From Microbacterium barkeri (GTDB lineage: Bacteria > Actinomycetota > Actinomycetes > Actinomycetales > Microbacteriaceae): a stretch of 64,000 nucleotides of DNA. The DNA lies in contig NZ_BSEJ01000001.1 of the NCBI RefSeq assembly GCF_027921765.1, positions 186,001 to 250,000 on the forward strand, written 5' to 3'. Under the pieces are notes generated by a model that was not told where the DNA came from, ran no database searches, and was given only the letters and a program-made list of their open reading frames with translations. Of this stretch, positions 3,905 through 62,856 are shown piece by piece (the first letter of the stretch is position 1; each line of letters begins with the position of its first letter). The position numbers and the translations under genes are program-made.

Positions 3905-7198
<3,294 letters not shown>

Positions 7199-7199
<1 letters not shown>

Positions 7200-8050
7200 T
7201 GCCGTCGTTCGGAGAGCGGGTCCGCGCCGTCCTCGACGCGCGCGGCCCGCTCTGCGTCGGGATCGACCCGCACCTTCCGCTGCTCGCGCGGTGGGGTCTC
7301 GAGGCGGATGCCGCGGGCGCGCGGGCGTTCGGGCTGCGCGTCGTCGAGGCGGCCGCGGGGCGCGCGGGCTTCGTCAAGCCGCAGGTGTCGTTCTACGAGC
7401 GCTTCGGGTCGGCGGGGATCGCCGCTCTCGAGGACGTGCTCGCGGCGGCGCGCGCGGCCGATCTCGTGGTGATCGCGGACGCCAAGCGCGGCGACATCGG
7501 ATCGACCATGGACGCGTACGGCGCGGCGTGGCTCACGCCGGGGTCGCCGCTCGAGGCCGACGCGCTCACGGTGAGCCCGTATCTGGGCGTGGGCGCGCTC
7601 GAGGGCACGCTGGCCCTCGCGGATGAGCACGGCAAGGGCGCGTTCGTCCTCGCCGCAACGAGCAACCCCGAGGCGACCGCCCTCCAGCGTGCGACCGCCG
7701 ACGGCTCGAGCGTCGCGGCGGCGATCGTGGCCGAGGTGTCGGCGCGCAACGCGCGCGTCGCGCGCGAGGGGGAGTGGGGCAGCACGGGCTTCGTCATCGG
7801 CGCCACGGTCGACTGGCACGCGGCGGGGCTGGCGCCGTTCGCTCCGCCCGCGCCCATCCTCGCGCCAGGGTTCGGGTTCCAGGGCGCCGCCGCGGCCGCG
7901 CTGCCCGAGGTCTTCCGCGAGATGGCGCCGTGCGTCATCGCATCCGAGAGCCGCAGCATCCTCGCCGCCGGCCCGGACGGCCTCGCCCAGGCGATCGCCG
8001 ACGCCGCGGCCGCCTACCGGGGATCGTCGGAGGGAGAAGCCGATGTCTGA
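7199..8050 (+). CDS. pyrF: Orotidine 5'-phosphate decarboxylase
   Basis: Last step of UMP synthesis. 283 residues, typical of the type-2 (mycobacterial/Myxococcus-like) family. [11 protein letters not shown] is at the N-terminus, the catalytic lysine lies in [12 protein letters not shown] (about residue 97), and SPYLGVGAL follows. The start is GTG 7199, overlapping the carB stop by one base. The C-terminus overlaps the ATG of the mIHF-Gmk fusion by 8 bases, so the operon continues into purine nucleotide metabolism. Confidence 0.95.
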
Positions 8051-10609: not shown

Positions 10610-12586
10610 ATGACACGCCGCATCGCGCGCGTGCAGCTCGACTCCCCGCTGCCGCAGCTCGACCGGCTCTTCGACTACGCGATCCCGCGCGAGCTCCTCG
10701 ACGACGTCGCGCAGGGCGTGCGGGTGAAGGTGCCCCTGCGGACGGCCGGGCGGGTCGTCGAGGGCTTCGTCGTCGAGATCGACGACGAGGACGACGCCGA
10801 CCGGCCGCTGTCGGAGATCGACCAGGTCGTCTCGAGCGCGCCCGTTCTGCCCGAGCGCCTCTACCGTCTCGCGCGCGCGGTCGCCGACCGTGCGGCGGGC
10901 TCCGCCGCGGACGTCCTGCGCCTCGCCGTGCCCAAGCGGATGGTGAGGGCCGAGAAGGCGTGGCTCGCGTCAGAGGCGCGCACGGCGCCGGTGGTGCTGT
11001 CGGCGGAGCGGCGGCGGGCCGAGGCGGTGCTCGAGGAGTTCCCGACGCTGCGCGAGCAGCTGCTCGCGGGGGAGCGCGTCGCGGTGGATGCGCCGCCGCG
11101 GCTCGTCGACGGCCGGCCGGCCTGGGCGCGCCTGCTCGCGGCCGCCGCCGCCACGATGCTCGCCGCCGGACGCTCGGCGATCGTCGCGGTCCCCGACCAC
11201 CGAGATCTCGACCTCCTGCAGGAGCAGCTCCTCCCGCTGGTCCCGGACGGGGCGATCATCCGCCACGATGCGGGTCAGTCCGGCCCCGAGCGCTACGCGG
11301 GATACCTGCGCACGCTCGAGGCCGCGCCGTGCATCGTGATCGGCAACCGCTCGGCCGTCTACGCACCCGTCAGCGACGCGGGGCTCGTCGCGATCTGGGA
11401 CGACGGCGACCCGCTGCTCGAGGAGCCGCTCGCGCCGTACGCCCACGCGCGCGACGTCGCTCTCGTGCGTCAGAGCATCGACGGCTGCGCGCTCCTGTTC
11501 GCCGGGCACACGCGGACGACCGACGTCGAGCGGCTCGTGTCGATCGGGTTCGTCGCGGAGGTGCAGGCGCCGCGCCGGATCGCGCCGCGCGTGGTGCTCA
11601 GCACGGCTCCCGAGCACGAGCAGGTCGCCGCGCGCATCCCGTCGGCGAGCTTCCGCGCCGTGCGCGAGGCGATCGCCGAGGGACCCGTGCTCGTCCAGGT
11701 CGCGCGTCCGGGCTATGCGCCGTCGCTCGTGTGCGCGGACTGCCGCACGCCGACGCGCTGCGCCCACTGCGGAGGACCGCTCCACGCGCGAGCGCGCGGT
11801 GCGACTCCCGTGTGCGCGTGGTGCGGGCGGTCGGCTCATGCGTGGTCCTGCCCGCAGTGCTCATCGACGCGGCTCCGGCTCGCGTCATCGGGCAGCGAGC
11901 GCACGGCCGACGAGCTCGGTCGCGCGTTCCCCGGTGCGCGGGTCGTCGTGGCCGACGGCGCGCATCCCGTCCGGGAGGTCGACGACCGGCCGGCGCTCGT
12001 CGTCGCGACGCGCGGCGCCGAGCCGCTCGCGCCGGGCGGCTACCGCGCCGTGCTCCTCCTGGACGGCGACCGCATGCTCCAGGCGCCCGACCTCAGGATC
12101 GGCGAGCACTGCCTGCGCTGGTGGTCGAACGCCGCGGCCCTCGCGGCGCCCGACGCGCCCGTGCATCTCGTCGGGGTGACGGGGCCGGTCGGCCGAGCCC
12201 TCGCGAGCTGGACGCAGCCGCACTACGCCCGGCTGGAGCTCGGCGAGCGCGCGCCCCTGCGCATGCCGCCGGCCTCGCGCGTGGCCCGGCTGGAGGGCGA
12301 CACGGCGGCCGTCGACGCGGCGCTCCGCTCGCTCGCGGAGGACGTGCCGGGGCTCCCGTTCGACGCGATCCTCGGGCCGGTGCCGATCGATCGCGACGGG
12401 TATCCGGGCTCGCGCGCGCTCATCCGCTTCGACTACGGCCGCGGACCGGCGGTGACCCGGTCGCTGCGCGCGTCGGTCGTCGCAGCGGCCATGAAGGCCC
12501 GCGGCCGCGCGAAGGACTCACGAAGCCGCAAGGCGGCCCGCAATACACTCGCAGTGCGCGTCGACATCGCCGACCCCGAGCTCTGA
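10610..12586 (+). CDS. priA: PriA-like primosomal protein N', helicase-degenerate actinobacterial form
   Basis: 658 residues. The N-terminal 3'-DNA-binding domain (about 1-100) is followed by a helicase-like core. A zinc-binding region with paired Cys-x-x-Cys motifs is present (CADC, CAHC, CAWC, CPQC around residues 370-425). Walker A is missing (AAAATMLAAGRSAIVAVPD in the expected place) and the DEAH-type box reads DDGD, so ATP-driven unwinding is unlikely. This loss is known for actinobacterial PriA, which is thought to act as a replication-restart adaptor. ATG 10610 lies 16 bp after metK. Confidence 0.9.
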   Translation: MTRRIARVQLDSPLPQLDRLFDYAIPRELLDDVAQGVRVKVPLRTAGRVVEGFVVEIDDEDDADRPLSEIDQVVSSAPVLPERLYRLARAVADRAAGSAADVLRLAVPKRMVRAEKAWLASEARTAPVVLSAERRRAEAVLEEFPTLREQLLAGERVAVDAPPRLVDGRPAWARLLAAAAATMLAAGRSAIVAVPDHRDLDLLQEQLLPLVPDGAIIRHDAGQSGPERYAGYLRTLEAAPCIVIGNRSAVYAPVSDAGLVAIWDDGDPLLEEPLAPYAHARDVALVRQSIDGCALLFAGHTRTTDVERLVSIGFVAEVQAPRRIAPRVVLSTAPEHEQVAARIPSASFRAVREAIAEGPVLVQVARPGYAPSLVCADCRTPTRCAHCGGPLHARARGATPVCAWCGRSAHAWSCPQCSSTRLRLASSGSERTADELGRAFPGARVVVADGAHPVREVDDRPALVVATRGAEPLAPGGYRAVLLLDGDRMLQAPDLRIGEHCLRWWSNAAALAAPDAPVHLVGVTGPVGRALASWTQPHYARLELGERAPLRMPPASRVARLEGDTAAVDAALRSLAEDVPGLPFDAILGPVPIDRDGYPGSRALIRFDYGRGPAVTRSLRASVVAAAMKARGRAKDSRSRKAARNTLAVRVDIADPEL

Positions 12587-56089: not shown

Positions 56090-56673
56090 GCTTGAAGGGT
56101 TCCATGGCGCCGAGGAGTGGGCAAGAGCCATTCGCACTTGTCGATGTGCGGCCATCCGCTCGCCATGATCACCGACCCGGCCGCTCGTCGAATCGCACGG
56201 GGAGCGACAGGGCCCCGCGCAGCGTGGTCGCATAGGGGGCGCGTGTCACTGTCAACCCAGGATGAATCTCGGTGGCGGAGGTACAGCTCGTCGCCGGCAT
56301 AGCGGGGGAAGACGTGGACATGCAGATGCCACACGTCCTGGTCGCCGGCGGGTTCGTTGTGCTGCCGGATCGAGGTGCCTTCGGCGCCGTAGGCGGATCG
56401 GATGGCGGTCGCCACCTGCTGCGTGAGGTCCCACACGGCGTGGCCATCCTCTGGGGCGAGGGCATAGATGCTCTCGACGTGTGCACGCGGCACCACGAGC
56501 GCAGAGCCCGCGTTGCCCGGCCACCACTTGGGTGCAATGCGCGCATAGGTCCGCTCGGTCACCGCGACGATGTCGGAGGACCGATTGTGCTCGTCCTCGA
56601 TTCCCCGCTGGAGACGACAGAACGGGCACGCGTAGCCGCCGGGCGCGTAGGACGGGGCAGGATGGCCGTTCAT
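56083..56673 (-). CDS. HIT-family hydrolase, probable 3' frameshift
   Basis: As read, 196 residues. CPFCRLQRG opens the fold. The HIT motif is intact in QDVWHLHVHVFPRYAGDELY (about 115-134), so nucleotide hydrolase or transferase chemistry is possible. After residue ~143 the frame (DTRPLCDH...) no longer resembles the family, while the neighbouring frame continues RAPYATTLRGALSLPVRFDE to a stop at 56169. A 2-base loss (or 1-base gain) near 56235-56245, in GGGGGCGCG, would explain it. Sequencing error and true mutation cannot be told apart here. Confidence 0.7.
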   Translation of the reverse strand: MNGHPAPSYAPGGYACPFCRLQRGIEDEHNRSSDIVAVTERTYARIAPKWWPGNAGSALVVPRAHVESIYALAPEDGHAVWDLTQQVATAIRSAYGAEGTSIRQHNEPAGDQDVWHLHVHVFPRYAGDELYLRHRDSSWVDSDTRPLCDHAARGPVAPRAIRRAAGSVIMASGWPHIDKCEWLLPTPRRHGTLQAC

Positions 56674-56706
56674 GCGCCGGTCCGCGCAGGCACACAGCTC
56701 ATCGAG

Positions 56707-56850
56707 TCAGGCGTTCCTGCACACATCGACGATCAGGCCGCCGGGGCCGCGGAGGTACGCCGCCTCGGTGCCCCAGTCCGTGAGCAGAGGGCCGCGCAGC
56801 AGCTCGGCTCCGGCGGCGACAGCGCGCGAGGTGGCCGCGGAATCGCATCG
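56707..56850 (-). pseudogene. C-terminal fragment of a VOC-family gene
   Basis: About 45 codons read AATSRAVAAGAELLRG then TDWGTEAAYLRGPGGLIVDVC to a stop, the typical end of a VOC/glyoxalase protein (alternate strand-helix, DPDG-like turn). The upstream part is gone: before it the frame runs antisense to the histidine-kinase remnant. It lies 34 bp before the HIT gene. Confidence 0.6.
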
Positions 56851-56892
56851 GTGAGAGCACCGACCGCTGTCGCGACGCACACAGCCAGAAGG

Positions 56893-57978
56893 ATGGCGAC
56901 GAGCGGCTGGTCGTGCAGCCAGGCCGGCGTTCCGGTCGACGCGCGTCTCGATTCGGTCGTGCTCGACAGCCTGCACCCCCTGATGATCGAACTCACGGCG
57001 CGCACGCTGCGTGAGGGGCTCACGAATGCGTCGCGCCACGCACCCGGAGCGGCCGTCCAGGTGGAGCTCTTTGCGGATGGCGCTGAGCACCTCGACCTGA
57101 AGGTGCGGTGGGGCGCGTCATCCCGGCAGGGGACGCAGGGGAGTGGGCACGGGATCCCCAGTCTCCAGCGCCGTGCGGCCCTGCTCGGCGCGTCGGTCGA
57201 GGCGGGAGCGGTCGCAGACGGCTTCGAGCTGCGGCTCCGGGCGCCCCTTCGCCCTGTGCCGCGGACGGACACGAACGACCGCGTGTGGGATGCGGCACTG
57301 ATCTCGAACTCGCAGGAGACCCGCCGACGGATCCTGCAGTCGGCTGCGGTTCCTGCGTCCGTCCTCGGGCTCGCCATCGTCGGCATCCTCGTCGTGCAGG
57401 CGGTCACCGTGACTCAGACGGCGATCCCGTCCAGCGTCTACGAGCAGATCGAACTGGGCGCCTCCCGTTCGGAGCTCGCACCTCGCTTGCCCGCGGGCAT
57501 CCCCGCGCCGCCGCCGATCGTCGTGGAGGAAGACGCGCCACCGAGCACGAGGGTCGTGATCCTCACGACCTTCGGCGAGGACGAGTACATCGAGCGCGCG
57601 CTGGGCGAGGGCGCGCTGGGCTTTCTCGTCAAGGCCGCTGATCCGCGAGAGCTCATCGCGGGCGTCCGTGCCGTCGCCGACGGGGGAGCCGATCTGTCGC
57701 CGACGATCGCCCGAAGGGTCGTCGCGCCCTACCGCGGAGGAGAGCGGATGCGCGACGCGGCCGCGCGGGAGGCGCTTGCGGGATTGACCGAGCGGGAGAA
57801 GGCGGTGCTCGCGCTGCTCGGCGCGGGCGCGTCGAATGCGGAGATCGGCGCGCAGCTGCATCTCGTCGAGGGAACGGTCAAAGGCCACGTCAGCGCGATC
57901 CTCGGCAAGCTCGGCGCGCGCAATCGTGTCGAAGCCGCGGTGATCGCGCATCGCGCGGGGCTGGTCACCGCGGAGTGA
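56893..57978 (+). pseudogene. Histidine kinase / response regulator in-frame chimera
   Basis: One open frame joins three partial pieces. Codons about 10-125 are the C-terminal ATPase part of a NarL-type kinase (TARTLREGLTNASRHAPG N-box, GSGHGIPSLQRRAALLGA G-box). Codons about 135-210 hold a membrane helix and a BamE-like start (YEQIELGASRSELAPRLP). Codons about 215-361 are a response regulator lacking its first ~60 residues, including the phospho-Asp, with an intact LuxR-type HTH (LTEREKAVLALLGAGASNAEIGAQL). I infer one deletion between kinase tail and regulator, and another removing the kinase front. ATG 56893 is a possible start. Confidence 0.7.
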
Positions 57979-58025
57979 GGGGGAGCCGCGCGCATCTCGC
58001 CACGGACCGTCCCTCAAACTCTACT

Positions 58026-58173
58026 GGTGACCCGGCGTAATCGTGACCGGCGTATTCGCTGTCGAGAATGTCCGTCCGACAATCCGCCGTTTCGGCGGGT
58101 CACGTTTCAACGTGTCGCGCACTTGATGGTCATCGTCGGCCTGGTCGCCATACACGATCGTTTCCAGCGACCG
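58026..58173 (+). repeat. Diverged direct repeat, left copy
   Basis: Its first 28 bp (58026-58053) match 62318-62345 at 25 positions. Similarity continues through TGTCGAGA, CGTCCGAC, TTTCGGCGGGTCA, GTGTCGCGC, GGTCATC and ACGATCGTTT in the same order. It is about 4.3 kb from the right copy, in the same orientation. No coding function is apparent. Confidence 0.65.
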
Positions 58174-58249
58174 CGTTGCTGACGGCGGCAGAATGCGCCG
58201 TAAACGTCAGGCGTAAGGGGTTGGTCTCGGCGTCTGGTGTCCGCCTCGC

Positions 58250-58255
58250 TATGGT
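58250..58255 (+). promoter_or_regulatory. -10 box left in front of the PHP fragment
   Basis: TATGGT, 7 nt before ATG 58263; a preserved leaderless start for a gene that has lost its body. Confidence 0.45.
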
Positions 58256-58262
58256 GTGCGGT

Positions 58263-58430
58263 ATGACTCTGACGGCAGACGCACACGTTCATAGCGAGTG
58301 GTCATGGGATGCGGGCTCGGATCCCGCATCCGCTGGAACTATGAACCGAATCTGCGAACGGGCAGTGCGCATCGGGCTCCCGGCAATCGTCTTCGCCGTC
58401 CGGCGGATCGTCGATCCATCCGATTCCTGA
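58263..58430 (+). pseudogene. 5' fragment of a PHP-domain phosphoesterase gene
   Basis: The first 45 codons read MTLTADAHVHSEWSWDAG ... CERAVRIGLPAIVF, the N-terminal metal-binding strand and helix of histidinol-phosphatase-like PHP proteins (HxHSEWSWD). After 58397 the frame continues about 10 unrelated codons to a stop. The expected next motif (TEH) is missing. The body of the enzyme has been removed at a junction near 58398. Confidence 0.65.
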
Positions 58431-58574
58431 GGGGACCGCTGCGCGCCGGGGCGTCATCCGGCCGTCGAAGACCGCACCCGATGAGTGGATGGGACGCGGT
58501 CGACGCAGCAGGAGCAGGACCGCCACGCCGCCTCGCAGCAGCCAGCCGGCGAAGCGCGAGGCGACGAGCGGCAT
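58398..58574 (-). pseudogene. 5' fragment of a small membrane-anchored protein gene
   Basis: From ATG 58574 about 59 codons look coding: a short N-terminal hydrophobic helix (GWLLRGGVAVLLLL), RPRPIHSSG, and SGIGWIDDPPDG. This resembles the start of a family I recall beside the upstream gene in actinobacteria. The open frame then continues antisense through the PHP fragment to 58302. Its start lies 2 bp after the stop of the gene at 58577, so it was the next gene of that operon before truncation. Confidence 0.45.
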
Positions 58575-58576
58575 CG

Positions 58577-59152
58577 TCAGTGCTTCCGTCGCGCCGTGCG
58601 CCGAAGAGGGGAGAGGAGCAGGACGACGGCGGCGACCCAGGGACCTGCGACGATGATCGGGTCGAGCCGCGCGTGTCGGAGATCGAGACGGCCCCTTCCG
58701 ACTCGGGATGTCACCGGCCGATGACGCGGTTCCGAGAGCACCCCCGTCTGCGTCACCGGCTCATCGGGGTGCCGGGTGAAGAACGATCGGACGTGTGCTC
58801 CGACGGATTCGGTTCTGTCGCCGAGCACGAGGATGAGCCAGCGCAGGTTCTTCGTCTCACTGAGGTGATCGTAGGCGAATCGGCGGATCCGCCCTGAGAT
58901 CCCGTGGAGCGGTTGCACGGTCCCTTAGACCGGCGTGAGCATCGCATGCTCGATGGATCGTTCCCGACGCGGATCATCGGGCTGCCGATCGGGGAAGCTC
59001 CAGTGGGCTCCGGTCGGCTCGAGGTTCTCCCGCTGTTGCCACGTGCGGCGGTGCTCCGGTGGGAGATCCGCGCCCCAGCCGGGAATCCTCGCTCGGAGGT
59101 CCTCGGCCGACGGCGCCAGATTGGGCTTCTCGGATTCGTAGGGCATGGTCAT
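58577..59152 (-). pseudogene. Membrane-anchored hypothetical gene interrupted by an in-frame TAA
   Basis: From ATG 59152 (overlapping the dehydrogenase stop) 75 codons run to TAA 58925-58927 (ending SIEHAMLTPV). The same frame then continues, coding-like, for 115 more codons to TGA 58577-58579, with a C-terminal hydrophobic helix (DPIIVAGPWVAAVVLLL). I recall intact homologues of about 190 residues with a residue in place of the stop, so this is one gene with a nonsense codon. Restart at GTG 58918 could still give the second half. Function unknown. Confidence 0.6.
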
Positions 59153-60297
59153 TCCTCTCCGACGATCACGACCGGCTTGATGCAGTCGTCGAGTTTCGCT
59201 GAGAAAACGTGGTACGCCTCGGCGATGTGCTCCAGCGGGAACCGGTGAGTGAGAAGGTCGCTCGGGCGCAGGTGCCCGTTCCGGATGTGTTCGAGCAGGC
59301 GGGGCCACTGACGTTTGACGGGCGCTTGGTTCGCGCGGACGGTCAATCCCTTGTTGACGATGTCTCCGAGCCGGACGGATGAGACGATCGGGCCGTAGGC
59401 GCCGATGACCGACACCGTGCCACCCTTCCGTGCAGAGTCGATCGCCCAGTTCACGGCCACGGGTGAGCCGCCCTGCAGCTTCAGCTTCGCGCCGGTCACG
59501 TGCTGCAGGACGCTCCCGTCCGCCTCCGCGCCGACGGCATCGATCACGACATCCGCGCCCAGGTAGTCGGTCGCCTTCTTCAGGGCGAGGACGATGTCGC
59601 CCACCTCCGACAGATGGATCGTCTCCGCGAACGCGAAGGTCTTCGCCCTCTCCAGTCGGTAGTCGATGTGGTCGACGACGATGACCCGGCCCGCGCCGAG
59701 GAACCACGCCGATCGCGCCGCGGCCAGTCCGACAGGGCCGGCGCCGAAGACGACCACCGTGTCGCGCTCGGCGATGTCGCCGAGCTGGGCACCGAAGTAA
59801 CCGGTCGAGAACGCGGCCGTCAGCATGAGCGCGTCTTCCGAGCTCAGCCATTCCGGGATCACGGAAGGTCCCACATCGGCGAAGGGAACCCGGACGAATT
59901 CCGCCTGCCCGCCGTCGTAACCGCCCGTCGTGTGCGAGTAGCCGTAGATGCCGCCGACGGCGGTGGCGTTCGGATTGACGTTGTGGCAGTTCGAGAACAA
60001 CCCGCGGCTGCAGAAGTAACAGCTACCGCAGTAGATGTTGAACGGGACCATCACGCGGTCGCCGCGCTGGAGGTTCTGCACCGACGGTCCGACCTCCTCG
60101 ACGATTCCGACGATCTCATGTCCGAAGGTGTGGCCGATGCGCGTGTCCGGCATCATGCCGTGGAACAGATGAAGATCGGAGCCGCACACCGCGGCACGTG
60201 TCACGCGGACGATGGCGTCGTGCGGATGCTGGATCTTCGGGCGCGGTTTCTCTTCGACGCGGATCTTGTACGGTCCGCGGTACGCCATGGCCTTCAT
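59149..60297 (-). CDS. Zinc-dependent alcohol dehydrogenase-family protein (MDR, FdhA-like)
   Basis: 382 residues. The catalytic zinc site starts in AAVCGSDLHLFHG (about 36-48) and GHTFGHEIVG. The structural zinc cysteines are in CGSCYFCSRGLFSNCHN (about 91-107). The Rossmann motif VVVFGAGPVGLAAA (about 182-195) binds NAD. The long loop and length fit glutathione-independent formaldehyde dehydrogenase-like members. Substrate not proven. ATG 60297 overlaps the stop of a 30-residue ORF, and the stop overlaps the next gene's ATG. Confidence 0.9.
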   Translation of the reverse strand: MKAMAYRGPYKIRVEEKPRPKIQHPHDAIVRVTRAAVCGSDLHLFHGMMPDTRIGHTFGHEIVGIVEEVGPSVQNLQRGDRVMVPFNIYCGSCYFCSRGLFSNCHNVNPNATAVGGIYGYSHTTGGYDGGQAEFVRVPFADVGPSVIPEWLSSEDALMLTAAFSTGYFGAQLGDIAERDTVVVFGAGPVGLAAARSAWFLGAGRVIVVDHIDYRLERAKTFAFAETIHLSEVGDIVLALKKATDYLGADVVIDAVGAEADGSVLQHVTGAKLKLQGGSPVAVNWAIDSARKGGTVSVIGAYGPIVSSVRLGDIVNKGLTVRANQAPVKRQWPRLLEHIRNGHLRPSDLLTHRFPLEHIAEAYHVFSAKLDDCIKPVVIVGEE

Positions 60298-60386
60298 CGG
60301 GTCACGCGCATTCTCGGGGCGCGCGGGGCGAGTCGTCGACCCGCGGGCATGGCGTTCGGGGGAGTGGGATCCGCTGCTGGGGTCAT
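60294..60386 (-). CDS. 30-residue leader ORF coupled to the dehydrogenase
   Basis: ATG 60386 has GAGGAG 6 bases upstream, and the frame runs 30 codons (begins MTPAADPTPPNAMPAGRR) to TGA 60294-60296, overlapping the dehydrogenase ATG as ATGA. The dehydrogenase lacks its own clear ribosome site, so re-initiation from this ORF is likely. The peptide itself is Pro/Arg/Ala-rich and unrecognised. The rest of the gap to 60655 holds no other gene that I can support. Confidence 0.45.
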   Translation of the reverse strand: MTPAADPTPPNAMPAGRRLAPRAPRMRVTR

Positions 60387-60608
60387 CTGCTGCTCCTCGA
60401 TCGTGGCGGGGACGGCCTCTGCTCGACCGCACTGGTCGACGGTCCGACACTGATGAGAAGTGGCGCCGCAGAAGAGGGCATTGACGATGTGGGGTCGGCG
60501 TCGTAGCTCGCGCGGCCTGTGGGCCGGGCGATGGCCGGGGGAGTGTGGACGAGGACCGGGCGATCGCAGCCCGCAGCGCACAGCCCATGGAATGTCCGAG
60601 GTCTGCTG

Positions 60609-60614
60609 TAGCGT
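60609..60614 (+). promoter_or_regulatory. -10 box for the VOC-wHTH pair
   Basis: TAGCGT, about 41 bp before ATG 60656; it predicts a short leader with GAGGAGAG (60643-60650). Confidence 0.45.
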
Positions 60615-60655
60615 GACGCCCACCGGCCATGTACTCGGCTCAGAGGAGAGTGTTC

Positions 60656-61096
60656 ATGATGCAGTTGAACGGTTTCAGCAATGTGGTTCTGCCCGCGCGA
60701 GATCTGCCCGCGAGCATCGCGGCCTGGACGGCGTTGCTCGGTCGAGAACCCGCATTCCACAGCGACGAGTTCGCCGCGTTCTCCGGAGATGGCGTGGAGA
60801 TCGGGCTGACCGCGGCGCCGTGGGTGGATCATCCGCTGGTCTTCTGGACGGTCGAGAACATCGAGCAGGCCCATCGAGCGCTCGTCGCCGCCGGGGCCAC
60901 GGCGATGACCGAGGTCGCCGACGGATCCCTCGCCGAGCTCGGCACCGCCGAGGCCGCCGAGGGTGACAACATCGATCCGGGCACCGGGATCGTCGACATG
61001 CCCGGCGCCCGTCTCGCCGTGTTGAAGGCGGCCGACGGCAACCTGATCGGTATCACGCAGGAAGTACCGATGGACTGGTTGGTCGACGAGTCGTGA
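60656..61096 (+). CDS. VOC-family protein
   Basis: 146 residues. FSNVVLPARDLPASIAAWTALLGREPAFHSDEFAAFSGDGVEIGL then AHRALVAAGATAMTEVADG and AVLKAADGNLIGI: two beta-alpha-beta VOC modules with an insert (about 96-116). Enzyme activity not assignable. GGAG lies 8 bases before ATG 60656; ATG 60659 is an alternative. The stop overlaps the next GTG (GTGA). Confidence 0.85.
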   Translation: MMQLNGFSNVVLPARDLPASIAAWTALLGREPAFHSDEFAAFSGDGVEIGLTAAPWVDHPLVFWTVENIEQAHRALVAAGATAMTEVADGSLAELGTAEAAEGDNIDPGTGIVDMPGARLAVLKAADGNLIGITQEVPMDWLVDES

Positions 61097-62196
61097 GCGC
61101 CGGTGTGCGCGCACTCACGCGGCGAGTCCTGAACCGGACGCTGCTGGAGCGGCAACTGCTGACCCGCCGCGTTTCTCGGACCCCACGGGAGGCGATCGAG
61201 CATCTCGTGGCGATGCAGGCGCAGGTGCCGAACGGACCCTATGTGGGGCTGTGGGCCCGGTTGGAGAACTTCCGGCGCGACGACCTCACGTCCCTGCTGG
61301 AGGGCCGGGACGTGGTGCACGCGACCATGTTGCGTGGGACGCAGCATCTGGCCCGCGGCGAGGACTTCGGTTGGCTGCGGGCGACGGTCGCGACGCTCGT
61401 GCGGAGCGCACTGGCCGAGCCATACTACGCGGCGCAGATCGAGGGGATCGATCCGGACGAGCTCGGCAGCGCCGGGCGGGGGATGCTGACCGGCAGGACG
61501 CTGCAGCGCCGGGAGCTCGGCGACCTGCTCGTCCACCGTTTCCCCGGCCGCAGCCCTGGCCGGCTTGCCGAGGCCTTCGAGCTGCTGGAGGCGCTGGTGC
61601 ATCCACCCCCTCACCCCATCTGGGGCGGGTGGGGGCATCGCCGTGGGACACCGGTCGCCTTGGCCGACGAGTGGCTCTCCCGACCGATCGCCGACGCATC
61701 ACAACCCGAGACGATGGTGCTGCGCTACCTCGCCGCATTCGGTCCGGCCTCTGTCATGGACGTCCAGGCCTGGTCGGGGATCACGCGACTCCGCGAGATC
61801 GTCGAAGGGCTGCGGCCGCGCCTGCGCGTCTTCCGGGATGAACAGGGAGCAGAGTTGTTCGACCTGCCCGACGCGCCGCTCGGCGAACCGGACGCTCCAG
61901 CACCCGTCCGGTTCCTGCCCGCCTTCGACAATGCTGTTCTCGGGCACCGGGACCGGACGCGGGTGATCAGCGAGGAGAATCGTCGACGTATCGCACCCCG
62001 GGCGTCCGCGGGCGTACCTCTGTTCCTCGTCGACGGCTTCGTCGAAGGAAGCTGGAGCCTGACCCGCGATCAGTTGCGCATGGCGCCCTTCCGGCCGCTG
62101 ACGGATGCCGAGACAGCAGCTGTGCGGGACGAGGCCACCCACCTGGCCCGATTCGTCGCGCCGGACGGCACGGAGCCGGCGATCATCATGACGTGA
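61093..62196 (+). CDS. Winged-helix DNA-binding domain protein (HTH_42-like)
   Basis: 367 residues. ALTRRVLNRTLLERQLLTRR, EAIEHLVAMQAQVPNGPYVGLWARLENF and ATMLRGTQHLARGEDF are typical of the DNA-binding winged-helix family that includes YcaQ-type glycosylases. A later FLPAFDNAVLGHRDRTRV and LVDGFVEGSW block is also conserved in the family. Some members unhook DNA crosslinks; that role here is inference. GTG 61093 overlaps the VOC stop, so the two are co-translated. Confidence 0.82.
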   Translation: MSAGVRALTRRVLNRTLLERQLLTRRVSRTPREAIEHLVAMQAQVPNGPYVGLWARLENFRRDDLTSLLEGRDVVHATMLRGTQHLARGEDFGWLRATVATLVRSALAEPYYAAQIEGIDPDELGSAGRGMLTGRTLQRRELGDLLVHRFPGRSPGRLAEAFELLEALVHPPPHPIWGGWGHRRGTPVALADEWLSRPIADASQPETMVLRYLAAFGPASVMDVQAWSGITRLREIVEGLRPRLRVFRDEQGAELFDLPDAPLGEPDAPAPVRFLPAFDNAVLGHRDRTRVISEENRRRIAPRASAGVPLFLVDGFVEGSWSLTRDQLRMAPFRPLTDAETAAVRDEATHLARFVAPDGTEPAIIMT

Positions 62197-62317
62197 ACGT
62201 GGTCGGCGTCGAGCCTGCTCGTCGCGGTCGGGAACGGCTGTCATCACGCCTGAGGAGGGTGCCACCTGCACTGAGGGCAGATGCGGGGGAGCGCACCCGG
62301 GTTTTCGATTACCGACC

Positions 62318-62510
62318 GGTGACTCGGCGTACTCGTGACGGGCGTTCTGATTGTCGAGAGCGCTCGTCCGACTCTGCGCCGAATGCGTACCACACGCGTT
62401 TCGGCGCCGTGAGGTTTCGGCGGTGGGTTTCGGCGGGTCAAGGTCGGCGTGTCGCGCGCATGAAGGTCATCACCGGCCGGATTGCCGTAAACGATCGTTT
62501 TCGGTCGGTC
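62318..62510 (+). repeat. Diverged direct repeat, right copy
   Basis: Pairs with 58026-58173; it has an extra ~47 bp in the middle. It contains a perfect 12-bp palindrome AAACGATCGTTT (62489-62500), and a related AAACGATCGT recurs at 62737-62746. The 350-bp gap between the wHTH gene (62196) and 62547 holds this repeat and no gene I can support. Confidence 0.65.
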
Positions 62511-62546
62511 AACTATGCGCTGTACCGGCGGACGCCGCCGCGCGAC

Positions 62547-62651
62547 TCAATGTCGCGCTGCACGCCGCTTACGCTGGCTCGGCAGGAAGCCGAGCGCCAC
62601 CGGAACAATGATCCCGAGGGCACAGACGATGGCGAGGATCGGAGTGCTCAT
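62547..62651 (-). CDS. 34-residue single-helix membrane peptide
   Basis: ATG 62651 to TGA 62547-62549. The N-terminal two thirds form one hydrophobic helix (TPILAIVCALGIIVPVALGF), followed by a basic end (SQRKRRAARH), an arrangement that would place the C-terminus in the cytoplasm. Only a poor ribosome site is visible. It may be a real small membrane protein or a chance frame; its composition is clearly membrane-like. Confidence 0.4.
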   Translation of the reverse strand: MSTPILAIVCALGIIVPVALGFLPSQRKRRAARH

Positions 62652-62795
62652 ACAACCGATGGTCCCATGGATGGCGCGTCACGGGTACCGCAACGATGCG
62701 ACGACGTCTTCGGCGATCACGAGGCGGCTCCACCGCAAACGATCGTCACCGGCGGGCCTACCCGCGCCAGGGTGGGAGAGCGCACCGGCGCAGAC

Positions 62796-62828
62796 ATGTC
62801 AGCTTCAAACTGACATAATGTGCATTAT
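62796..62828. promoter_or_regulatory. AT-rich double palindrome
   Basis: ATGTCAG-cttcaaa-CTGACAT (62796-62816) is followed by ATAATG-TG-CATTAT (62815-62828). They lie in an otherwise gene-free 205-bp stretch, downstream of the flavin-reductase-like gene and upstream of the 34-residue ORF. Operator- or terminator-like; no regulator gene is adjacent. Confidence 0.4.
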
Positions 62829-62856
62829 CGGATGATCCCGAGCGCGCGGGCTGCCC

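Follow-up and report, generated by a model that had tools for sequence, protein, structure and literature searches.

Diverged direct repeats in Microbacterium barkeri as candidate attachment sites of an integron-like cassette system with a small serine recombinase

What do two diverged direct repeats, 4.3 kb apart, mark in the genome of Microbacterium barkeri? They lie in the window, the whole stretch of 64,000 nucleotides analysed here (positions 186001-250000 of contig NZ_BSEJ01000001.1 in a 3.5-Mb draft genome), and a sequence-only reading had taken them to enclose a segment brought in by, or caught between, copies of an undescribed repeat or decayed mobile-element end. We consider it likely, with a probability of roughly 0.8, that the repeats are attI-like primary attachment sites of an integron-like cassette system that uses a small serine recombinase. 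The sites, the exchange of cassettes at their core, pairs of loci with and without given cassettes and recombinase genes beside cores are observed in the compared sequences, and soil-dwelling Microbacterium and relatives appear to swap metal-resistance, phage-defence and other cassettes through these sites. Genomes and loci are cited below by our G and L numbers.

The two copies are direct, diverged and in the same orientation, as the sequence-only reading had it; their refined limits are given in Table 1. Two collinear blocks align, 58089-58163 with 62427-62500 (80% identity over 75 bp; E 1.6e-11 in a whole-genome search) and 58023-58089 with 62315-62381 (76% over 67 bp; E 5e-8 in a small set of fetched loci), and about 45 bp between the blocks are absent from the left copy. 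Over an ungapped 53-nt core the copies are 81% identical. The palindrome that had been noticed in the right copy is present (AAACGATCGTTT), with ACACGATCGTTT as its left-copy counterpart; it had been seen but not recognised as the functional end, and the action lies outside the block, at 62489-62748, beside a dif-like site. The genome holds no third copy of comparable score, the remaining matches being 16-28 bp long with E 0.3-0.6. Relatives carry more: the right copy was matched at E<=1e-3 in 39 of 149 genomes of the genus, its own included, most often over about 107 bp ending at the palindrome. The exact 12-mer AAACGATCGTTT occurs in 46 of the 149 genomes, often several times within a few kilobases, and the same pattern written backwards in none. 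These counts place the repeat far above chance, and the earlier suspicion of an undescribed repeat tied to mobile DNA is supported.

Inspection of the flanks of cores in 20 and then 40 array regions revealed two site types around one near-palindromic core, CCGnAAACG-AT-CGTTTnCGG (consensus CGCCGnAAACGATCGTTTnCGGc in 39 non-redundant sites). In the attI-like type, which is that of the window repeat, the core is followed by a gap of about 30 bp, CGGCGTGTCGCGC and three direct GTTTCGGC repeats. The attC-like type has the half-site pair CTGCCGaaag..ggTtcCG..g..CGTTTnCGGC, whose right half starts 43-44 bp before the core in 31 of the 39 non-redundant sites (in the other eight the anchor fell elsewhere) and whose half-sites have, on our reading, a spacing about 10 bp wider than in the core. 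The site models were seeded by hand from 17 attC and 15 attI windows chosen by eye, both window copies being among the attI seeds, and the same data were scored. The thresholds, 33 and 45 bits, were chosen with the scores of 400 control windows already in view: attC scores there reached at most 27, and attI scores had a 99th percentile of 20 and a maximum of 72.6; we take the control window with this maximum to overlap a real attI. These models called 166 sites at 67 loci in 51 genomes, with 48 attI-like and 81 attC-like flanks (some sites have two) and 45 bare cores. Where the attI of an array points in one direction only, 44 of 51 attC-like sites are oriented as the attI and seven are opposite, and up to five attC-like sites follow an attI in a single direction. 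Locus L101 (G082 C1, position 8075 of the locus) has a single core with an attI-like site on either side, the two oriented towards each other without anything in between, and a recombinase fragment; we read it as an empty double platform.

Beyond the genus, the 18-base core pattern was found in 12 of 299 genomes of the family and in 9 of 85 genera (counting the window's own), and sites scoring as attI or attC also occur in records of Pseudoclavibacter, Demequina, Sanguibacter and Pseudolysinimonas. Among the matches listed, the cores in named records of more distant phyla are bare by the site models, bar one record named Acidobacteria. Some of these distant cores are probably due to chance; those at a fixed distance from serine recombinase genes are not. 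The excepted record (L163, named Acidobacteria UBA2994) has an attC-like site of 70 bits and is probably a mis-binned actinobacterial contig.

One survey yielded 71 core-to-core segments with lengths of 0.6 to 10.5 kb, besides two of 135 bp. Many cassettes recur end to end in other species with different neighbours, at up to 100% identity. A 2,319-bp MerR-SulP cassette is found in G001, G146, G065 and G642 (99.9-100%) and in G033 (93%); a 5,603-bp cassette in G077, G001, G146 and G642 (99.8-100%) and in G280 (98%); a 4,187-bp P-type-ATPase cassette in G146, G148, G234 and G036 (98-99.9%) and, inverted towards the attI, in G147 (94%); and a 7,504-bp cassette in G033, G036 and G147 (97-99%). G642, with cassettes 98.9-100% identical, belongs to another genus of the same family. 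In G440, from a third genus, the 5,603-bp cassette (99.9%) is split by an insert of about 1.6 kb (L378, ~6094-7731), the platform being otherwise intact. The best plasmid match of the 2,319-bp cassette was 74% identical over 82% of its length, and one record fell in the 80-90% band over less.

The ends of these cassettes map the exchange. Our comparison used 51 full-length cassette pairs from about ten cassette families, pairs that are not independent. At 36 left junctions with differing neighbours, identity rose from 0.28 at position -1 through 0.86 at core position 2 to 1.0 over positions 3-11 (0-based); at 36 right junctions it was 1.0 over positions 0-8 and fell to 0.89 at 9 and 0.36 at 12. 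Since identity is complete from position 3 on the left and ends after position 8 on the right, the exchange falls inside CGATCG, a resolution of these six bases and not of 2 bp.

Some loci form natural before/after pairs for whole cassettes. The near relative G177, a single contig of 3.04 Mb, aligns with window positions 58387-62501 (98.25%) and 62484-62831 (98.3%); at the point corresponding to window position 62489 it carries a further 2,021 bp, two additional cassettes that sit precisely between core copies. Its cores at 11994, 13203 and 14015 (reverse complement of L324) bound the two, of which one is inverted and carries a GNAT-family gene and the other encodes a 109-aa protein without a family. 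The single core of the window has the attI side of G177 as its left flank and the distal side as its right flank; by this alignment, DNA was added to, or lost from, the right-copy palindrome on the side away from the block. In the second pair, the 2,319-bp cassette of G146 abuts the 5,603-bp cassette, and in G001, G065 and G642 cassettes of 760 and 751/759 bp stand between the two with exact core junctions (in G065 the 5,603-bp cassette extends past the stretch fetched).

Cassette genes were picked as open reading frames (ORFs) by the GC content of third codon positions, and the longest 100 of 164 clusters were run against Pfam and PADLOC, of which we consider the best 25 of 106 and the best 25 of 46 families, respectively. 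Among the matches listed are P-type ATPase, SulP transporter, VIT1, ArsP permease, DUF305, MFS and TIR domains, a match to Thoeris ThsB, a reverse transcriptase of the retron/DRT type, sigma factors, resolvases and one ISL3 transposase. Regulators are encoded within the large shared cassettes themselves, MerR by test and, as we read the genes, probably also ArsR, CsoR and two-component regulators. Given the phage-defence candidates (the reverse transcriptase, ThsB and TIR proteins), the arrays may also be defence islands.

At nine loci a small serine recombinase gene reads away from the core, with its VGYARVS codons 136-137 bp from it: on two platforms of G082 and in G115, G059 (frame-shifted), G440, Microbacterium sp. 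CH12i (L134), M. oleivorans P10 (L171), M. oxydans BEL163 (L242) and G485. The site at these genes scores as attI in eight of the nine. In four loci (both of G082, G440 and G485) the array, judged by further sites on the fetched stretch, lies on the opposite side of the core from the gene, and recombinase, attI and attC are all present in G082 (twice) and G440. In G042 the gene stands about 143 bp from a core and contains a stop codon, and broken remnants lie beside attI in G077, G098, G280, G145 and at a third G082 site. Aeromicrobium camelliae (L130) has a recombinase gene 161 bp from a core.

The recombinase matches PF00239 (E 2.9e-34) and contains the serine motif Y-x-R-V-S, as VGYARVS; the closest solved structure is the DNA invertase 4m6f (E 3.7e-28), which we take to be Gin. 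A tree of 38 sequences groups the platform genes in one clade of 11 (nine beside a core, two with a similar upstream region) with support 88/91 and places the recombinases of Aeromicrobium and G001 apart from it. The platform label needs three changes on this tree against a shuffled mean of 9.5 (0/500 as low), a contrast for which near copies are partly responsible. The core keeps such company more widely. The core-fetched loci (L126-L243, at least 118 loci) contain the core by construction, and a small serine recombinase that starts within 300 bp of it and reads away was found in 14 of the 118 listed, compared with 19 of 2,360 positions drawn at random from these loci; the core therefore goes with serine recombinases well beyond the platform clade.

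Seven of these 14 (L149, L156, L165, L203, L227, L232 and L239) have a 35%-identical gene with an exact core 116-117 bp upstream. Four of the seven (L149, L156, L165 and L203) are named Gluconobacter or Acetobacter, the others being unlabelled among the matches listed; all seven Acetobacteraceae-type loci may be one element, and their core is possibly a related site of a plasmid or transposon resolvase. A distant serine recombinase (37%) of G001 (L340, C5:2113681-2114319) lies 129 bp from an exact core, which suggests a second, independent recruitment.

A complete platform would run from the recombinase gene through an attI-like site, with three GTTTCGGC half-site repeats and the near-palindromic core, to cassettes that lie mostly head to tail, many of them ending in an attC-like site with its wider half-site pair. 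A dimer of the recombinase, the presumed catalyst, would bind each core; the accessory repeats would assist in pairing two cores, which would be cut at the central AT and exchange their halves. Reaction of attI with attC would join a circular cassette to the platform, and the reverse would excise it as a circle whose junction would read ...CCGnAAACGATCGTTTnCGG.... Because the core is palindromic, a cassette could also be inserted backward, and inverted cassettes are seen. Read this way, the window has two platforms: one beside the dif-like site, nearly empty of cassettes and without its former recombinase, and a decayed second one, the left copy.

Several observations weigh against this interpretation. 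An open recombinase gene of this type stands beside the attI in just three (L100, L341 and L342) of 46 attI-called loci, and no recombinase relative was found in the window's own genome at E<=1e-8, so that recent exchange would need a recombinase acting in trans or past activity. Next to the genes of G485 and Aeromicrobium the cores are bare, as are all three non-attI sites of G015, and the 45 bare cores overall have no recognisable accessory sites. Relatives 66-78% identical to the recombinase elsewhere in the genus (L248-L251 and L253-L261) have no such core within 400 bp upstream, and 24 plasmid records carry relatives at 60-80% (compared by gene). The wider clade also has DRLAG, DRLGG or DRIAG for DRLGR and R-V for E-R or E-H; the altered residues are seen, for example, in L244 and L248-L261, the usual ones being kept in the L111, L112, L267-L271, L273, L281 and L340 types, with L266 intermediate. 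In gamma-delta numbering, these conserved residues are R71 and R119. Lacking them, the clade may differ in its chemistry, and it is possibly a subfamily with a rearranged active site. Finally, the attI of the window type is conserved in several species for about 85 bp further outward, and in the left copy, G147, G132, G221 and G179 this conservation breaks off at nearly one and the same base (GTCACCAGTA or a close match). The model does not account for this stretch, whose end may mark the border of either a mobile unit or a functional region.

The sites might instead be relic res sites of plasmids or transposons, at which resolvases occasionally exchange modules, with homologous recombination in addition and no dedicated cassette system. 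Relatives of the recombinase (54-79% among the matches listed) do occur on actinobacterial plasmids, and in Gluconobacter and Acetobacter distant serine recombinases have the same core, single and bare, upstream of them. Module exchange by resolvases at res sites, including CinH-RS2, is described in a passage of PMC9501444 and was reportedly treated by Kholodii in 2001, a study cited there and in PMC12217951. Relic res sites, however, would not readily account for two site types of fixed layout, attI at the recombinase and attC on the cassettes, for runs of up to five attC-like sites one way after an attI, for 71 core-to-core segments or for an exchange mapped to 6 bp, a tract too short for homologous recombination, and we regard this explanation as improbable. 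Transposases are not absent, one ISL3 match being among the best 25 of 106 families of the 100 cassette proteins. A true tyrosine-integrase integron, or an array of the CALIN type (clusters of attC sites lacking an integrase), with divergent attC hairpins and an unseen IntI, would share the platform site, the mostly head-to-tail cassettes, sites of about 90-110 bp made of two half-site pairs and the shared cassettes. The integron integrase model TIGR02249 passed its cut-off in none of 24 array-bearing genomes, though, and G001, with two arrays, has only two PF00589 hits, which we take to be XerC and XerD. PF00589 was found in all 24 genomes, and, among the matches listed, just two come within 5 kb of an array, in G098 and G146; a tyrosine integrase was rejected as the engine. 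Integron attC boxes read RYYYAAC and GTTRRRY; the core consensus, compared by eye with these boxes, does not match them and is a strict palindrome. Inverted cassettes also occur, and serine recombinase genes stand at the cores; because of the latter, at the platforms, the idea of hairpin attC sites was dropped. This makes an integron proper highly improbable.

Modules moved by Xer recombinases, like the pdif modules of Acinetobacter, were suggested by the neighbourhood of dif. The genome has a single dif-like site, GATAATGCACATTATGTCA, whose core lies 62 bp from the distal core, and the spacing is 61-63 bp in the window, G177, G132 and G221. We presume that it is dif from the actinobacterial motif, whose full pattern had no match and whose core pattern had this one site, and from its single-copy conservation, with matches in 144 of 149 genomes of the genus, a few of them twice; we take it to mark the chromosome terminus. 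By contig coordinates, however, 1.0-1.8 Mb separate the arrays of G001, G015, G098 and G125 from the dif-like site (a lone G001 core is 72 kb away), and a tie of the clusters to dif was therefore rejected. Compared by eye, the core consensus does not match the XerC and XerD arms of dif, and the exchange maps to CGATCG, so that Xer-driven movement is scarcely tenable. As for a segment delivered by, or trapped between, mobile-element ends, two direct copies do flank the block. Yet G177 holds 58387-62501 (98%) and the right copy without the left copy, and its added DNA starts at the core on the opposite side. Relatives of the dehydrogenase stretch at 71-82% identity are widespread, in scores of genomes (two candidates per genome were scored for window stretches). 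The block is thus not a repeat-delivered unit, a reading already contradicted and deserving next to no credence; decay of the left copy is supported. The block was also tried as a cassette and rejected: 58164-62488 matched no segment of other arrays over 300 bp, and its left border is absent in G177.

Integrons are the textbook cassette-capture system. The cassette system proposed here functions like an integron and is not one by descent, differing in enzyme and in site. Shared with integrons are an outward-reading recombinase gene at one end with a platform site beside it, cassettes with sites of their own (mostly head to tail, as in the 44 of 51 co-oriented sites, bare sites notwithstanding), cassettes common to several species and genera, arrays without a recombinase, as in CALIN, and the site-specific gain or loss of whole cassettes (the window against G177, G146 against G001, G065 and G642). 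Different are the serine recombinase in place of the tyrosine IntI, the palindromic core with putative exchange at AT, the occasional inverted cassettes, and large shared cassettes that are multi-gene with their own regulators. Resolvase/res systems (Tn3, gamma-delta, Sin and the CinH-RS2 shuffling) likewise combine a small serine recombinase with a crossover core and accessory half-sites that span about 140 bp directly upstream of the recombinase gene, but lack the many cassette-borne sites of a second type in arrays and the altered conserved residues. DNA invertases such as Gin and Hin include the closest solved sequence, and the palindromic core would permit inversion; here, instead of a two-state switch, there are cassette arrays and exchange between genomes. 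In the pdif modules of Acinetobacter plasmids, too, short sites for site-specific recombination enclose genes, and different plasmids share identical ones; according to a passage of PMC9501444, these modules are thought to use XerC/XerD and dif-like sites.

Actinobacteria are reported, in a part of PMC9024848, to be without complete integrons; integrons are nearly absent there, for a cause called unclear. We think it probable, with less assurance than for the sites themselves, that the system is a second, independently evolved class of cassette capture, a 'serine integron', in which a dedicated small serine recombinase of a clade with a rearranged active site, acting on attI and attC, takes up, reshuffles and inverts cassettes of several genes in Microbacteriaceae and other Micrococcales and fills a niche empty of tyrosine integrons in Actinobacteria. 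We found no description of serine-recombinase cassette arrays in the listed titles and abstracts of open-access papers. If true, this would be convergent evolution of cassette capture in Actinobacteria and would account for the intact transfer of metal-resistance and phage-defence modules among environmental actinobacteria. Cassettes could be mined by one short site motif, the system could serve as a new multi-gene recombination tool, and the absence of integrons from the phylum would become a testable question.

Table 1. Features at and between the two repeats, in window coordinates
Feature	Position	Strand	Remarks
Left attI-like copy, decayed	58022..58163	+	~45 bp of repeat section gone; core ACACGATCGTTT at 58152-58163; attI model 70 bits, itself a seed
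Remnant beside left copy	58164..58386	.	Weak inverted attC-like stretch and first part of gene 58241-58398
Ordinary chromosomal segment, common to G177	58387..62314	.	98.25%
ADH-type dehydrogenase	59149-60297	-	
VOC/glyoxalase-fold protein	60629-61096	+	
AlkZ-like protein	61093-62196	+	
Right attI-like copy, better-preserved platform, recombinase gene lost	62315..62504	+	attI model 105 bits, itself a seed
Three direct GTTTCGGC repeats, putative accessory recombinase sites	62398..62434	+	62398-62405, 62414-62421, 62427-62434
Crossover core GCCGTAAACGATCGTTTTCGGT	62484..62505	.	Palindrome 62489-62500; putative exchange at central AT
Leftover short cassette-like segment	62501..62736	.	236 bp
Degenerate distal core AAACGATCGTCA	62737..62748	.	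2 mismatches
dif-like site, landmark beside the array and not part of it	62806..62833	-	Core 62811-62829

The leftover segment has a relative between two cores in G292, beside one core in G177, G049 and G095, and with no core nearby in G350. The weak attC-like stretch beside the left copy scores 20 bits, under the threshold of 33, and 29 bits with a model that included it; the adjoining gene is 75-90% identical to DNA of several other genomes and encodes, as we read it, a PHP-like protein. Upstream of the left copy, an ORF at 56272-57978 runs on into a C-terminal half with a receiver (E 2.6e-5) and a LuxR-type helix-turn-helix (E 3e-16), and looks like a histidine kinase and a response regulator fused by decay.

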